From positions 29,428-93,427 of the forward strand of contig JAENYU010000010.1 of the NCBI GenBank assembly GCA_016841625.1: a stretch of 64,000 nt of DNA, written 5' to 3'. A program made the position numbers and the translations under genes. Within the stretch, counting starts at the first letter, position 1, and every line of letters begins with the position of its first letter. The notes under the pieces are model-generated. The model was given only the letters and a program-made list of their open reading frames with translations, was not told the DNA's origin and searched no databases. Source of the DNA: Methanobacteriota archaeon. Its GTDB lineage: Archaea; Halobacteriota; Methanosarcinia; Methanosarcinales; Methanosarcinaceae. Shown one piece after another: positions 20,470 to 45,168 of this stretch.

Positions 20470-23061
20470 TCAGGCCCCTGGATAAGTTTTGACAAAGTTT
20501 TCGAACCATTTTTCCCAGCGGCTGTAAAGTTCTTCAAAATCGGCTTCAAAGTCAGGTTCCGATTCGGATCCGAAACCGTATTCATGTCCGGAATCGTATC
20601 CAGGTCCGGAATCATATTTTTTACCGGAACCACATTCAGATCCAGAATCATATTCAGGCCCAGAATCGTATTCATGATCAGAACCGGATCCGAATTCAGG
20701 CTCTTTTCCTCTTCCGCCCTTCATCCCTTCTTTCATGGAGTCCATGAGCAGCCAGAAAATATTGTTTGCTTTGCTCACGGCTTCGGCTTCCAGCAGTACC
20801 GGACGCCTGCGGCCTTCCTCCACGATCTTTTCTTTTATCCGGGTCCTGATTTCGATGTTTTTCAGGGCCTGGTCTATGGAAATTCCCCATTTCCGGGAAA
20901 TCTTTTCAATTAATTCGGACTGCCCCTGTTCAAGTACTTCCCCGGGGAGCAGGTTGTCCCGGGCTGCATCGTAAGTCATGATGTCCGTGAAAAGTTCTCC
21001 GGGGTCCGGATTTTCGATCGCTGTGCCCGTGACTTCGGTAATCCGGCTTACCCGTTTGATCCTTTGCATGCTGCCGCCCGGCCTGATGGACGAGCAGATA
21101 ACAACGGCGTCCGTTGCTTTAAAGGAAGCCGGCGGGACCCCGAGGGTGTGCACGATTCTCTCGTACACGTTTTCCGTGGAAGAGCCGTGGATGGTCCCTA
21201 TCACGGAGTTTCCGGCTTTTCCGACCTGCATGGCTTCGTAGAGCACCTTCACTTCCGGTCCCCTAACTTCCCCGATAACCAGGGACGAACTCCCCAGCCT
21301 CAGGGCTGCCCGGAGCGCGGTTTCGGGACTTATTTCAGCGCCTGATTTCAGTACGGATGAGTGCGAGCTCATCCCCTGCACCTTCCAGCCCAGACCCTGG
21401 AGCTTTTCGATGGGGAGTTCGTGGGTGTCCTCGATTGTGAGGACCCGGTACTTCTGGGGGATTTCAAGGAGCATGGCCGAGAGGAGCGAGGTCTTTCCGG
21501 CTCCCACCTCCCCTGCAATCAGCACGGAAGCCTGCCCGTCCATTAGGAAACTTAAAAGCCCGGCTGCGAAGGGGGAGATCGAGCCCGTGTTGACCAGTTT
21601 TGGCAGGGTCCAGGGGGAACGCGCATGTTTCCGGAAGGCGTAGGCAAGCCCGTTTGCGCTCAGGGGGTCTCCTATGACCGAGACCCTCACCCCGAAGTCC
21701 TCCAGGTTCAGTTCGAGCACAGGGACAGCTTCCCCAAAAGGCCTCCCGCTGATTGTCCTGAACCTTGAGACCAGGGCGTCAAGGTCGTCCTGGGAAAGAA
21801 AGACGTTGCTTACGCACTCTTCCCCTTCCAGGACAACGTGCACGGCGTTCAGGTCCGCAGGCGCGTTGATGTATACATCCGTGACCAGCGGGTCCGAGAG
21901 GAGGTCTTCTACGATCCCGAGCCCGTTTGTGTAGCGGGCAAGCAGGTCGGAATAACTTTCCAGCTCCGCAGGGGAGACAGACTTGTCCCCGGAGAGCAAC
22001 TCTTCGAGCAGGAATTCCCTTGCCATTCGCCTGAAATATTTCCTTGCCCCGGCAGGGTCTGTAAAAGCAAGGTCTCCGGGCCTGTGCCTGATCATTCGTT
22101 TCCTTACCTTTTCGAGCAGCCGGAGTTCTTCGGGACGCAGGTTGTACTCGGGAGGCCTGATCATGTAAAGTTTCTCGGGCTTGTCCGTGTAGCGGTAGAT
22201 GGAAATCTCAAGCACCCTTTCGTCCCTTTCGTCCCTGCCGCTTATGTCGTAGCACTCAAGAAATTCGGTGTTCCGGGGAGCTTCGGTGTAGATCCGGGAG
22301 CTGGAAAAAGGAGGCCTTACATGGGGCTTGATCCGGCTTTCGTAGTCAAAAAAAATGTCGATTGTGCCTCCTTCCGTGGCAAGCGCCCTCTCTCCCGGCA
22401 CCAGTTCTCCTGATGTATCCGCAATCAGGTTTCCTGATGTATCCGCAATCAGGTTTTCGGCGCTCTGTCCGGGTTTTTCGCCAGGAACCGGAAAATCGTG
22501 ATTCTGGAGGGCAGGAATTCCCACAGGCATATCCGGGAAAACCGGGGCTTTCTCCAGTATTTCATACAGCAGGGGGTAGAAGTGTTCCGAACAGGCTGCG
22601 CATTCGGGGGAATCTCCGGGAACTTTCCTTAGCCCCTTTGCCTGAATGAACATGCTCAGGACAAGGCGAGCTTTCATGGGGTCATATTCCGCATTTTCGA
22701 TCAGGATCTCCATGAAGTCTTTCCTTTCCCCCAGGCATTCGCTTTTCTCAGCCCGGGAACACGGTTCGGGAACCATCTTCGTACCCCCGTATCCGATAAC
22801 GCTCTCCCGGAAACCCGCAAGGGTGTAGAGAGACTCCAGGGCTTTTCCCTCGTAATCCCGTTCATAGAGCCTGGAAAGCACCAGGCAGTCGGCATGCACT
22901 TCCTTTCTCAGGATTCCGAAGATTTTCCTGCGGCAGTCCGGATCATTAAGGGAGGATTCGGATTCACATTCTTTACAACTGACAACAATCGTTTTTCGGT
23001 TTTTCGTATGCCTGTTTTTGTAGGGGCAGAGTTCCTCTCCCTCTTTGCCCTGCCCGCGCAA
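20470..23061 (-). CDS. Type II/IV secretion system ATPase (FlaI/TadA/GspE family) with long N-terminus
   Basis: The hexameric ATPase that powers assembly of a pilus-like filament. The catalytic core (about residues 370-690) shows the Walker A GEVGAGKTS (517-525), the Asp box TIEDTHELP, the Walker B region SSLVIGEVRGPEV and the His box IGTIHGSSTENVYERI. The protein has 863 residues, about 300 more than typical. The N-terminal third has Cys pairs (CKEC, CAAC) that may bind zinc, and a short duplicated LIADTSGN segment (about 203-218). Residues about 789-838 are a low-complexity tail of EYDSG-type repeats, encoded by a short DNA repeat at 20560-20700. The start is a TTG at 23061 and the true N-terminus is uncertain. 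Confidence 0.88.
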   Translation of the reverse strand: MRGQGKEGEELCPYKNRHTKNRKTIVVSCKECESESSLNDPDCRRKIFGILRKEVHADCLVLSRLYERDYEGKALESLYTLAGFRESVIGYGGTKMVPEPCSRAEKSECLGERKDFMEILIENAEYDPMKARLVLSMFIQAKGLRKVPGDSPECAACSEHFYPLLYEILEKAPVFPDMPVGIPALQNHDFPVPGEKPGQSAENLIADTSGNLIADTSGELVPGERALATEGGTIDIFFDYESRIKPHVRPPFSSSRIYTEAPRNTEFLECYDISGRDERDERVLEISIYRYTDKPEKLYMIRPPEYNLRPEELRLLEKVRKRMIRHRPGDLAFTDPAGARKYFRRMAREFLLEELLSGDKSVSPAELESYSDLLARYTNGLGIVEDLLSDPLVTDVYINAPADLNAVHVVLEGEECVSNVFLSQDDLDALVSRFRTISGRPFGEAVPVLELNLEDFGVRVSVIGDPLSANGLAYAFRKHARSPWTLPKLVNTGSISPFAAGLLSFLMDGQASVLIAGEVGAGKTSLLSAMLLEIPQKYRVLTIEDTHELPIEKLQGLGWKVQGMSSHSSVLKSGAEISPETALRAALRLGSSSLVIGEVRGPEVKVLYEAMQVGKAGNSVIGTIHGSSTENVYERIVHTLGVPPASFKATDAVVICSSIRPGGSMQRIKRVSRITEVTGTAIENPDPGELFTDIMTYDAARDNLLPGEVLEQGQSELIEKISRKWGISIDQALKNIEIRTRIKEKIVEEGRRRPVLLEAEAVSKANNIFWLLMDSMKEGMKGGRGKEPEFGSGSDHEYDSGPEYDSGSECGSGKKYDSGPGYDSGHEYGFGSESEPDFEADFEELYSRWEKWFENFVKTYPGA
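20555..20700 (-). repeat. Coding repeat in the secretion ATPase tail
   Basis: Diverged copies of an 18-base-type unit (CCAGAATCATATTCAGG and relatives) encode alternating Glu/Tyr/Asp/Ser/Gly residues near the C-terminus of the ATPase. The core enzyme motifs are not affected. Copy number may vary between strains. Confidence 0.75.
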
Positions 23062-23345
23062 CTGCCCCGGATTGAGACAACTAACCGTATCCAGAATTTT
23101 CGCTATCAGATCCAGAATTCATCCCCCATTTCCCCAAAATTTTTACGATCAAAATTCTTACAGAGATTCTCTTCAAATGTATTAAATTCTTTCTACAAAT
23201 AGACCAATTAGGCTATTAATTAGCACGAGGTTATTATTTATTTTGTAAGGGGTCGCTTACGAATACCAGAACTACTAAGGGTTCCTGAATGCCACTAAAG
23301 GCGATTTAAGTTCAGGACTTGCCTAACATGATTAGTATTCGCCAA
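23062..23345. other. Spacer between the secretion ATPase and the DUF2117 gene
   Basis: About 280 bases without a recognisable gene. It contains AT-rich runs that may hold the ATPase promoter and a short GTATTCGCCAATTAGTATTC duplication at the end of the DUF2117 gene (about 23335-23354). Confidence 0.45.
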
Positions 23346-40956: not shown

Positions 40957-41133
40957 AATAGCTGGTAATGAAGGTCGGTTGTAAAGGTTATTGGGCTGTA
41001 AAAGTTAATTGAAAATTCCGGTAAAAAAGCTCTAATAAAAGGGAATATAAAATAAACGTATAAAAACGCCTATAAATTAATTATAATTAGTGGGATTAAA
41101 AACCTGAATCCATTAATGGGGGTAAATTCCCTG

Positions 41134-41337
41134 GTGCGGGAAACCATAAAAATAGAAGGTATGGCATGCAATCACTGCGTCATGCGAGTCGGGAGAGCTA
41201 TTGCTTCCGTGAAAGGGGTAACGGAAGTGGATGTAAACCTTGAGAAAAAAGAGGCAGTTGTGGATTTCGAGGGGGATAAAACGGATCTGGGAGAAATCAA
41301 AGCTGTTGTCCGGGAAGCGGGGTATGAACCTGCCTGA
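41134..41337 (+). CDS. HMA-domain copper chaperone (first of three)
   Basis: A 67-residue single HMA fold, as in CopZ, which carries Cu(I) to a P-type ATPase. The metal site is GMACNHC, followed by the VRVGRAIASVKGV helix and the C-terminal VREAGYEP. I prefer the GTG at 41134, ten bases after the SD GGGGGT, because it gives the same length as its neighbours. The ATG at 41116 overlaps the SD. It precedes two further HMA genes and CopA. Confidence 0.8.
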   Translation: MRETIKIEGMACNHCVMRVGRAIASVKGVTEVDVNLEKKEAVVDFEGDKTDLGEIKAVVREAGYEPA

Positions 41338-41363
41338 AACTGGGATGGTATATATATTTAGTT

Positions 41364-41463
41364 TGTGAATATATATTGCTGGTTGTGAGTATATATTTCT
41401 GGTTGTGAATATATATTGCTGGCTGTGAATATATATTGCTGGCTGTGAATATATATTGCTGGT
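41364..41463. repeat. 20-bp tandem repeat with TATA cores, five copies
   Basis: TGTGAATATATATTGCTGGT recurs exactly every 20 bases from 41364 to 41463, with one copy slightly diverged. Each unit contains ATATATAT. The array lies between the first and second HMA genes, about 95 bases before the second. Confidence 0.95.
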
Positions 41464-41557
41464 TGTATTCTTGATTTACATTGTTGACTTATTGATTTAC
41501 ATTCTTGATTTATTGATCCATTCTTGACTATTAATTATTTCAAAGGAGGTTTGAACC

Positions 41558-41764
41558 ATTACTCAGGAAACCATAAAAGTTGAAGGCATGTCCTGCGGGC
41601 ACTGCGTCTTGGCAGTCAAAAGAGGAATTGAAGCTGTAGAAGGCGTGAAAGAAGCTACTGTAAGCCTTGAGGATAAACAGGCAGTTGTTGACTACGACGA
41701 AAAGAAGGCGAAACTTGAAGATATCAAGGCTGCTGTTCGGAAAGCCGGATATGAACCTGTATGA
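41558..41764 (+). CDS. HMA-domain copper chaperone (second of three), probable ATT start
   Basis: A 68-residue HMA protein, read directly, with metal site GMSCGHC, AVKRGIEAVEGVKEATVSLE and IKAAVRKAGYEPV. No ATG, GTG or TTG lies in frame between the upstream TGA (41552) and the HMA motif. The first ATG (41585) is the Met of the metal loop and would remove the first strand. An ideal SD, AAAGGAGGT, lies eight bases before ATT (41558), so ATT is the probable initiator. The reading TQETIKVEGMSC is parallel to its neighbour's RETIKIEGMAC. Confidence 0.75.
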   Translation: MTQETIKVEGMSCGHCVLAVKRGIEAVEGVKEATVSLEDKQAVVDYDEKKAKLEDIKAAVRKAGYEPV

Positions 41765-41907
41765 CTTATTTTATTCTTGAAGTCTGAAACGGTTTGTACA
41801 ACAGTGGGAGCATCTGGACAGAATCATTATATACGAATAAGTGCAGATTTTTATATACAGGGAAACGCAAGCGTGTGTTTAACTGCTGATGCTTTGGGGG
41901 TGAAAAC

Positions 41908-42111
41908 ATCAGGGAGACAACACTGATCGTGGATGACATGGTCTGCAGATACTGCAAGAACATGGTCACCAGACTCGTTAGCTCTATCAACGGAGTTTCT
42001 CGTGTAAACATAAATGTTCCGGACAGGACTGTAAATGTGACCTACGACAGCCAGAAAACCGATGAATACGTCATAAAAGTTACCCTGCTAGAAGCCGGGT
42101 ACAGGCTGTAA
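41908..42111 (+). CDS. HMA-domain copper chaperone (third of three), probable ATC start
   Basis: An HMA-like protein of 67 residues with metal site DDMVCRYCKN and the C-terminal VTLLEAGYRL. The strong SD GGGGGTGA (41896-41903) ends four bases before ATC (41908). Starting there gives RETTLIVDDMVCRYC, in line with the neighbours. GTG at 41929 is the only canonical start but lies 25 bases from the SD and removes the first strand. An in-frame TGA at 41887 excludes a longer form. The loop is CRYC where the others have CNHC or CGHC, so it may be a diverged member. Confidence 0.65.
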   Translation: MRETTLIVDDMVCRYCKNMVTRLVSSINGVSRVNINVPDRTVNVTYDSQKTDEYVIKVTLLEAGYRL

Positions 42112-42183: not shown

Positions 42184-45168
42184 ATGGATTTCAGGATAAA
42201 GGTCTACGGCATGACCTGCGGTCATTGCCAGAAAAGGGTAGCTGATGCTATATCCTCTCTGGAGGGGGTAGAATTCGCAGAGGTCAATCTCGAAGCCGAA
42301 GAGGCTAGAGGTAGCTTCGACCCCGAAAAAGTAAGCCTGGAGGCTATAAGGGAAGCTATTCGGAAAGTCGGATATGAAACTGAAAAAGAAGAATCCGAAA
42401 AAGAAAAATCCGTAATAGTAGCTCCGGAAGGGATACCTGAAACAACTGAAAAAGAAGTTACGGCAATGTCCCCTGAACTTCCTGAGAAGGAAATCACTCT
42501 CGAGGAAGAAGTCACTCCCGAGGAAGAAGTTAAGACAGGAGAGGATGCAGAGGCCGAAAAGGAAGTGAGGGCAGGAGAGGATGCAGAGAAAAAAGCAGCC
42601 CTTGAAGCCGGCTCTAAAACCATCCCTGAAGCCACACCTGCCACGCCTGAAGCCACGCCTGCCACGCCTGCCACACCTGCCACGCCTGAAGCCGTCCCTA
42701 AAGAAATCACCCTCCGGGTTTCGGGCATGACCTGCGCCGCCTGTGCGGCAAATATCGAGAGGGTCCTGAAAAAGAAGGAAGGCGTGGAATCCGCATCCGT
42801 AAATCTTCCGCTCGAAAAAGCCAGTGTAAGTTTTGAGCCGTCCCGGATTTCTCCGAAAGAAATCGAGGAAGCTATCGAGTCAATAGGGTATGGGGTGGAA
42901 AAGGATACTGTTACTCTGGACCTGCAGGGTATGACTTGTTCGGCCTGCTCTGCAAACATTGAAAAGGTCCTGAACAAAACCGAAGGAGTAATTTCGGCTT
43001 CAGTAAGTTTCCCGCTGGAAAAAGCTATTGTGGAATTCGATTCCTCCCGGGTTTCGGTCCGGGAAATGATTGCAGCTGTCGAGAGCATCGGCTACGGGGC
43101 TTCCGTAAAGGTCGAAACCGCGGAATATGAAGATAGGGAACGGGAATTTCGAGAAGCTGAGATCCGTAAGCAAAAGAATAACCTGCTCATTGCCCTGGTC
43201 CTGGGGGTCCCCATCTTTTTAGGAAACATGCGGATGATGTTTCCTTTTTTTTCCTTCGTGCCCGCCTTTCTCTCTAACCCGATTGTGTTATTTGTACTGG
43301 CAACCCTGGTCCTCCTCTTTCCGGGGAGGCAGTTTTTCGTCGGGACTTTCAAAGGTTTCAAGTACGGCGTAACCGATATGAACCTCCTGATCGCCGCCGG
43401 GGCAGGGTCAGCTTACCTGATAAGCGTGGCCGCAACTTTCCTGGACCTGGGACCCGGCTACGACAGTACCTACTACGACACGGTTTCTTTCCTGATCATT
43501 TTCATTGTCCTGGGCCGCTACCTGGAAGCCAGGGCAAGGGGGAAGACCTCGGAAGCCATCCGAAAACTGATGGGACTCAGGGCAAAGACTTCCCGGATCC
43601 TGGTTGACGGGGAGGAAAAGGAGGTCCCTGTGGAAGAAGTCGGCGTAGGGGACATAGTGGTTGTCCGCCCCGGCGAAAAGATCCCCGTTGACGGGCTTGT
43701 GGTTGAAGGAAACTCGGCAGTGGACGAGTCCATGCTGACCGGGGAGAGCATCCCCGTGGAGAAAGGGAAAGGCGATACGGTTATAGGGGCTACCCTGAAC
43801 AAGACCGGGGCTTTTAAGTTCAGGGCAACAAAAGTTGGGGCAGACACTGCCCTTGCCCAGATCATCAAGCTCGTTGAAAACGCCCAGACCATGAAAGCGC
43901 CCATCCAGCGAGTTGCCGACGTCTTTGCCGGGAATTTTATCGTAGCAGTGCACATAATTGCCCTGCTTGCGTTTTTCTTCTGGTTCTTTATAGGATACTG
44001 GCGCTACGGCGTGGGAGAGTCAGAAGCCCTCATGGGAATCAGCCCCTTCCTCTTTTCCCTGCTGATAGCAATCACCGTCCTTGTGATCTCCTGCCCCTGT
44101 GCTGTGGGCCTGGCAACCCCGGCAGCCATCATGGTAGGCACGGGCAAAGGCGCAGAAAACGGGATCCTGATCAAGGGTGGGGAAGCTCTTGAGAGGGCAC
44201 ACAAACTTGATGTGATCGTTTTTGACAAGACAGGGACCCTTACCGAAGGTACCCCGAAACTTACGGACGTGCTGGCAGCTCCCGGCAGGGAGGAAAATGA
44301 AGTGCTTTTTGTTGCAGCCACGGCTGAAAAAGGCTCGGAACACCCACTGGGAGAAGCGGTGGTGAAAGGGGCGGAAGCCCGGGACCTAATCCCTGGAAAC
44401 GCAACCGATTTCAAATCCATTCCCGGCAAGGGGGTGGAAGCCTACTTCGAAGGAAAAAGAGTTCTCCTGGGCACCCGGAAGCTTATGGAAGAAAACGGGA
44501 TTTCTTTCAGGGAACTTGAAGCCGATATGCGTAACATTGAGGTAAACGGAAAGACGGCAATGCTAATTGCCCTTGAATCCGAAGTCCTGGGTTTGGTTGC
44601 CGTAGCCGATACCCTTAAAGGGAGTTCAAAAAAAGCGGTCCAGACCCTCCGGGACATGGGCATCGAAGTTGTGATGATAACCGGAGACAACGCCGCAACC
44701 GCAAACGCCATCAAAGCGCAGGTCGGGATTGAGAGAGTGCTTGCCGAAGTGCTGCCTGAAGACAAGGCAGGAGAAGTCAAGAAACTCCAGGAAGAAGGCA
44801 AACTCGTAGGAATGGTGGGCGACGGGATCAATGACGCCCCTGCCCTGATCCAGTCCGACGTGGGGATCGCCATGGGCGCGGGAACTGATGTGGCTATGGA
44901 ATCCGCTGAAATCGTGTTGATCAAGAACGACATCATGGACGTTGTCGCCGCCCTTCGCCTGAGCCGGCTGACCATCCGCAAGATCAAGCAGAATCTGCTC
45001 TGGGCTTTCGGGTACAATGCCCTCGGCATCCCCATAGCTGCGGGAATTCTCTATCCTTTTGTGGAGCGCATCCTGATCTCCCCGGAACTTGCAGCAGCGT
45101 TCATGGCCATGAGTTCGGTTTCCGTGACAACCAATTCCCTGCTCATGAAAAGAAGTAAGATTAAATAA
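42184..45168 (+). CDS. copA: Copper-transporting P1B-type ATPase with three HMA domains
   Basis: A 994-residue Cu(I) exporter. It has three cytoplasmic HMA domains: GMTCGHC (about 10-16), GMTCAAC (about 181-187) and GMTCSAC (about 249-255). The first is separated from the second by an acidic linker of about 110 residues, including a Pro/Thr/Ala repeat ([13 protein letters not shown]). It has eight membrane helices, the actuator motif TGES (about 519), the ion-path motif CPC (about 636), the phosphorylated DKTGT (about 681), the HP motif EHPLGEAV and GDGINDAP. The length and order are normal except for the long linker. With the three upstream single-domain proteins it forms a copper handling set of six HMA domains. 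Confidence 0.95.

Follow-up and report, generated by a model that had tools for sequence, protein, structure and literature searches.

Near-cognate start codons appear to be kept in tandem copper chaperone genes of Methanosarcina and its closest genera

At which codon does translation begin in three short HMA genes that stand in tandem upstream of a copper-exporting ATPase, when two of them have no ATG, GTG or TTG where a start codon would be expected? A preliminary description of the window (the whole stretch of DNA analysed, 64,000 nucleotides) had proposed that genes 2 and 3 start at ATT and ATC. Direct reading of the sequence bore out its premise: in-frame TGA codons lie just upstream of ATT 41558 (41552-41554) and of ATC 41908 (41887-41889), and the only in-frame ATG, GTG or TTG codons before the CxxC motif are internal, namely GTG 41929 in gene 3 (followed by an ATG), as originally placed, and the ATG of gene 2, which had been put at 41585 and actually lies at 41588. 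The alternatives for the start of gene 1 in this genome are GTG 41134 (residue 2) and ATG 41116, 15 nt upstream. The features of the locus are listed below.

41118..41123, + strand: SD of gene 1, GGGGGT, read from the sequence; duplex of −9.8 kcal/mol, 6 nt before CTG
41131..41337, + strand: gene 1, predicted HMA copper chaperone of 68 aa, with the inferred start CTG 41131-41133
41350..41466, no strand: AT-rich tandem repeat lying between genes 1 and 2, with about 5 copies of the 20-bp unit TTGTGAATATATATTGCTGG (TRF)
41545..41550, + strand: SD of gene 2, GGAGGT, read from the sequence; duplex of −11.2 kcal/mol, 6 nt before ATT
41558..41764, + strand: gene 2, CopZ-like HMA chaperone (predicted) of 68 aa, with the putative start ATT 41558-41560
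41889..41903, + strand: mini-ORF ATG CTT TGG GGG TGA, which ends in the SD of gene 3; rejected as a +1 frameshift signal
41896..41903, + strand: SD of gene 3, GGGGGTGA, almost invariant across 33 orthologs; duplex of −14.3 kcal/mol, 3 nt before ATC
41908..42111, + strand: gene 3, divergent HMA protein of 67 aa with a CRYC site, with the putative start ATC 41908-41910
42184..45168, + strand: copper-exporting P1B-type ATPase with a canonical ATG start (ORF and translation)

The Shine–Dalgarno (SD) sequences ahead of ATT 41558 and ATC 41908 had been called strong, and this was confirmed. The anti-SD was taken from the 3' end of the 16S rRNA (GGATCACCTCCT) as read in the relatives G001, G074 and G103 (G and L numbers denote genomes and loci, respectively); a 16S match was searched for in the window's own assembly and none was found, and the 16S of these relatives was used. 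The duplexes of all three genes are more stable than the median of −6.4 kcal/mol obtained for 434 genes at their best canonical starts.

The family assignment also bears on where these proteins begin. All three pass the cut-off of the Pfam HMA family (PF00403; 24.8 bits), with 70.2 bits for gene 1 in its GTG-started form, 72.8 for gene 2, and 42.4 for gene 3, and the Pfam alignments begin at residue 4 or 5; an internal start would therefore cut into the domain. Each is a free-standing protein of about 68 residues with a metal loop of the M.C..C type (GMACNHC, GMSCGHC, and DMVCRYC in genes 1, 2, and 3, respectively), as is usual for CopZ. Against TIGR00003, the NCBIfam copper-ion-binding subfamily domain (cut-off 62), genes 1 and 2 scored 67.9 and 65.0 and gene 3 scored 42.2, and none of the three reached the CopZ exception or equivalog cut-offs in the NCBIfam profile search. 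Gene 2 aligns over residues 2-66 with the same residues of the solved CopZ chains 2qif and 1k0v, residue 2 falling on residue 2, and the ATT therefore corresponds to their first residue. The AlphaFold model of gene 3 is of moderate confidence only (pLDDT 66.8) and places strand 1 at residues 3-7. The ATPase downstream carries SCPCAVG and DKTGT in its translation, with a CPC motif and three N-terminal HMA domains (profile matches). The three genes, located upstream of this copper-exporting P-type ATPase, seem to specify short copper chaperones of the CopZ-like kind, their copper role being predicted. Close orthologs of gene 3 were found only in Methanosarcina and close genera; in G090 and G091 (L194 and L195), the gene looks degenerate, with an N-terminal part that lacks an intact HMA reading.

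Loci were gathered from 112 genomes of the family and read as oriented stretches. At the gene 3 site, the 33 genomes had ATC in 28 cases, ATA in four, ACG in one, and ATG in none. Among the 45 copies of gene 2, the corresponding codon was ATG in 18, ATT in 14, ATA in 10, ATC in two, and GTG in one, and among the 19 copies of gene 1, it was CTG in 17, ATG in one, and CCT in one, the last being followed directly by GTG. Apart from this single CCT, every codon at the three sites is AUG or one mismatch off it. The preliminary description had suggested seeing whether ATT and ATC are kept among relatives: this is largely so for the ATC of gene 3, whereas gene 2 varies, with more ATG than ATT copies. 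The gene 2 site hardly varies in its first two bases, and any of the four bases can stand third (1.74 bits), so that Ile and Met codons interchange, as expected of a start codon read by Met-tRNAi. When gene 2 orthologs from other genera were aligned (n = 40), the same codon was ATG in 37 and GTG in one; in the other two, a GTG follows it by one codon or an ATG precedes it by two. Where a species has a stop two codons upstream of the CTG of gene 1, no start-like codon comes before this CTG. The preliminary description had implied a start at GTG 41134, but the orthologs place it one codon earlier, which makes CTG 41131 the probable start of gene 1.

Finding near-cognate codons at one aligned position among the 33 (gene 3), 45 (gene 2), and 19 (gene 1) copies compared is beyond chance. 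In-frame canonical codons do occur upstream of the site, in 12 of 33 copies for gene 3 and in 15 of 45 for gene 2, mostly at inconsistent distances or within the SD. That the aligned codon is the homologous start site and that coding begins there is strongly supported by these comparisons, the alignment to established starts being indirect for genes 1 and 3. Most simply, the near-cognate state was derived within Methanosarcina and the closest genera. The same comparison disposes of a sequencing or assembly error that hides a canonical start, an outcome that the preliminary description had named as refuting its proposal. The window does belong to a draft assembly, which has 63 contigs, but similar codons recur across dozens of independent genomes, some of them single-contig; error is refuted as an explanation, and its probability is negligible.

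The pattern of substitution shows where coding begins. In per-column variation, codon periodicity sets in from the first codon after the site, and upstream of it only the SD is conserved and codon bias is absent. Over the codons that separate the site from the internal canonical codon, the ratios of synonymous to nonsynonymous differences were 1.22, 2.38, and 1.37 for genes 1, 2, and 3, respectively, against 0.27, 0.28, and 0.37 expected without constraint (single-step codon differences, counted pairwise in a way that ignores relatedness). These results bear directly on the reading that translation begins at the internal codons ATG 41588 and GTG 41929 to give truncated HMA domains. In its favor, these are the sole ATG, GTG or TTG codons ahead of the metal loop in this genome, but the codons upstream of them evolve as coding sequence, the SDs are wrongly placed for them, and the truncated products would lack either strand 1 of the HMA fold or the CxxC motif. 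The first downstream canonical codon of gene 3 stands at residue 6, 8, 11, or 19; the counterpart of GTG 41929 is the first in only eight of the 33 copies, and in 12 genomes the first such codon lies past both cysteines, so that internal initiation there would give no metal-binding protein. As the canonical codons at these positions are not conserved among orthologs, internal starts were dropped, and we regard them as very unlikely. Initiation at ATT and ATC, the core of the earlier proposal, has by comparison strong support from the ortholog codons, the onset of coding, the CopZ alignment, and the ATG of other genera.

Alternatively, ribosomes might enter gene 3 through a prfB-like +1 frameshift out of the mini-ORF at 41889-41903, and a mini-ORF with ATG or GTG and a TGA, in the right frame, is indeed present in most orthologs. 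By inspection, however, it is absent from seven of the 33 (G008, G087, G093, G096, G098, G099, and G103), its frame differs in G086, G089, and G102, its TGA belongs to the SD, and such a signal is missing from genes 1 and 2. Since neither the zero-frame ORF nor the in-frame stop is conserved, the frameshift was rejected and must be considered extremely improbable. A hairpin around the SD of gene 3 (CUGAUG...CAUCAG, window 41884-41912), with the ATC in its stem, was also rejected; it occurs in several close relatives and is broken in many, with folding z-scores of about 0.

The strength of the SD varies with the start codon in gene 2. The mean duplex energy was −10.8 kcal/mol in copies with ATH and −7.1 kcal/mol in those with ATG or GTG, and the 37 ATG orthologs from other genera had a mean of −7.06 kcal/mol. 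On the ATPase tree there were about four switches between ATH and ATG, of which only two independent pairs lay on well-supported branches, and the association between SD and start was not significant; the pairing of a stronger SD with an ATH start in gene 2 is therefore suggestive. The trend runs in the same direction as the compensation of GUG and UUG starts by stronger SDs (PMC5622118), and the ATG with a weaker SD in part of the genus looks like compensation too. It could then be asked whether the near-cognate codons reflect drift, a strong SD having come first and selection on the start codon having relaxed afterwards, with no functional benefit. The nearly free third base of gene 2, the weaker SD where its codon is ATG, and the precedent of GUG and UUG would fit such a history, but ATG and ATT occur in none of the 33 gene 3 copies and gene 1 nearly always has CTG, a pattern that points to selection for particular weak codons. 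We consider drift of this kind possible, while leaning against it.

To see these genes in context, near-cognate starts elsewhere must also be considered. When 449 coding ORFs from the approximately 0.68 Mb of sampled stretches were scanned under strict conditions, 17 strong-SD sites had no canonical alternative; of these, seven were near-cognate, against about two expected (p = 0.0024). Two of the seven are the chaperones, and for one, scored as AAG, the actual codon is the ATT immediately before it. In a looser scan, near-cognate codons were not enriched at SD positions, SD-like motifs inside genes being dominant, and genes with near-cognate starts therefore form a small class, a minority. 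A rubrerythrin ACG from the first scan was a false hit, with an in-frame ATG two codons earlier, and three close genomes compared by synteny gave too noisy a picture for starts to be called.

Three further families have such codons at an aligned start. Six copies of a lipoprotein that reads (M)KKIGLFAVLLIAAMLFASGC... after a G-run SD (L342 and L347 in G001, L343 and L346 in G000, and L344 and L345 in G002; three genomes from the genus of the window, its own among them) have ATT in five cases, ATA in one, and ATG in none at that position. A DUF3784 membrane protein (L327-L330) has ACG in G000, G001, and G003 and ATG in G002 at one start position. The aligned start of an AIM24 family protein (L297-L326) is ATG in several genera and TTG or GTG in others, these three codons accounting for most species read, with near-cognate versions behind GGAGG-type SDs: ATA in G008 and ATT in G058, G061, G062, and G063. 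In the window itself, the frame of a T2SSE type II/IV secretion ATPase gene (20474-23118, − strand) opens with ATT CTG just past a stop, behind AATGGGGGA, and has no in-frame ATG, GTG or TTG for the next 18 codons; the ATT CTG layout is also present in G001, and this gene is a possible further case of a near-cognate start.

From these comparisons, genes 1–3 are very probably translated from the near-cognate codons CTG 41131 (the inferred start of gene 1), ATT 41558, and ATC 41908, a usage that is not specific to copper but extends, lineage-wide, to a minority of the genes of Methanosarcina and the nearest genera. The non-ATG/GTG/TTG starts of the three chaperone genes appear to be kept across about 30 related species. 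The idea that such starts could tune copper chaperone levels, which the preliminary description raised with infC start-codon discrimination as its model, is weakened as a copper-specific one because starts of this kind also occur in other genes of the lineage (lipoprotein, DUF3784, and AIM24), and because gene 2 has ATG with a weaker SD in part of the genus. Mechanistically, an unusually strong SD would hold the small subunit so positioned that Met-tRNAi tolerates a single mismatch in the codon, and the product would begin with Met despite the near-cognate codon. Initiation would be weaker than on AUG and partly restored by the SD, so that a weak codon with a strong SD might set a moderate level of synthesis without AUG. 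In gene 3, where ATG never occurs, the weak codon may be kept for a low set level.

A more far-reaching proposal is that start-codon discrimination serves as a regulatory switch, by which shifts in the stringency of start selection (e.g., in the level of aIF1) would control these genes, as IF3 does for infC. The absence of ATG from gene 3 in 33 of 33 genomes, through five codon changes, would agree with this. So would the role of aIF1 in favoring discrimination against non-canonical starts, as described in two reports (PMC6237735, which cites it for Sulfolobus, and PMC8211752). Nevertheless, the encoded proteins have no link to initiation, gene 2 changes freely to ATG, and the trait is common to unrelated genes, all of which makes a switch improbable. 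Broader, and to our minds still rather unlikely, is a reading for Methanosarcina and the closest genera as a whole, in which selection would keep a set of genes on near-cognate starts, with their translation tied to start-selection stringency and the set hidden by annotation that admits only ATG, GTG, and TTG.

If genes 1–3 do start at near-cognate codons, as we prefer, standard annotation probably mislabels, truncates, or misses such genes. Conserved AUU, AUC, AUA, CUG, and ACG starts, occurring in a genus that is genetically tractable, would be natural substrates for the study of start selection by aIF1 and aIF2. As gene 2 exists in ATG and ATH versions in sister species, with matching differences in the SD, the effects of codon and SD are directly measurable with existing Methanosarcina genetics. 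A partial literature search, after which priority is not certain, found no description of gene families kept on AUC, AUU, AUA, or CUG across a genus.

The chaperones resemble the CopZ/Atx1 copper chaperones in their HMA fold, CxxC motif, length of about 68 aa, and adjoining copper ATPase, and differ from them in their start codons and in gene 3, which represents a divergent subfamily. As regards initiation, isolated near-cognate starts are known from bacteria, where infC and pcnB have AUU. They share with the present genes a near-cognate start codon behind an SD, but they are bacterial and use AUU, whereas here an archaeon is concerned and AUU, AUC, AUA, CUG, and ACG are all found. The product of infC itself senses the codon, whereas the products here are HMA metal chaperones, unlike what infC-type autoregulation would involve. 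Among archaea, a review of initiation names AUG, GUG, and UUG as starts (PMC7531240). Closer at hand, Ribo-seq of Methanosarcina mazei, a member of the same genus, assigned CTG to 5% of 314 unannotated small ORFs (PMC11456600); the available part of that paper gives ATG, GTG, TTG, and CTG starts only and has no mention of ATT, ATC, or ATA starts or of copper chaperones. The closest parallel in the pairing of a weaker start codon with a stronger SD is that of the GUG and UUG starts in PMC5622118. Among the 61,358 ancestral AUG starts surveyed in that study, one switch from AUG to AUU and two from AUG to CUG were recorded, whereas here whole gene families appear to keep near-cognate codons.
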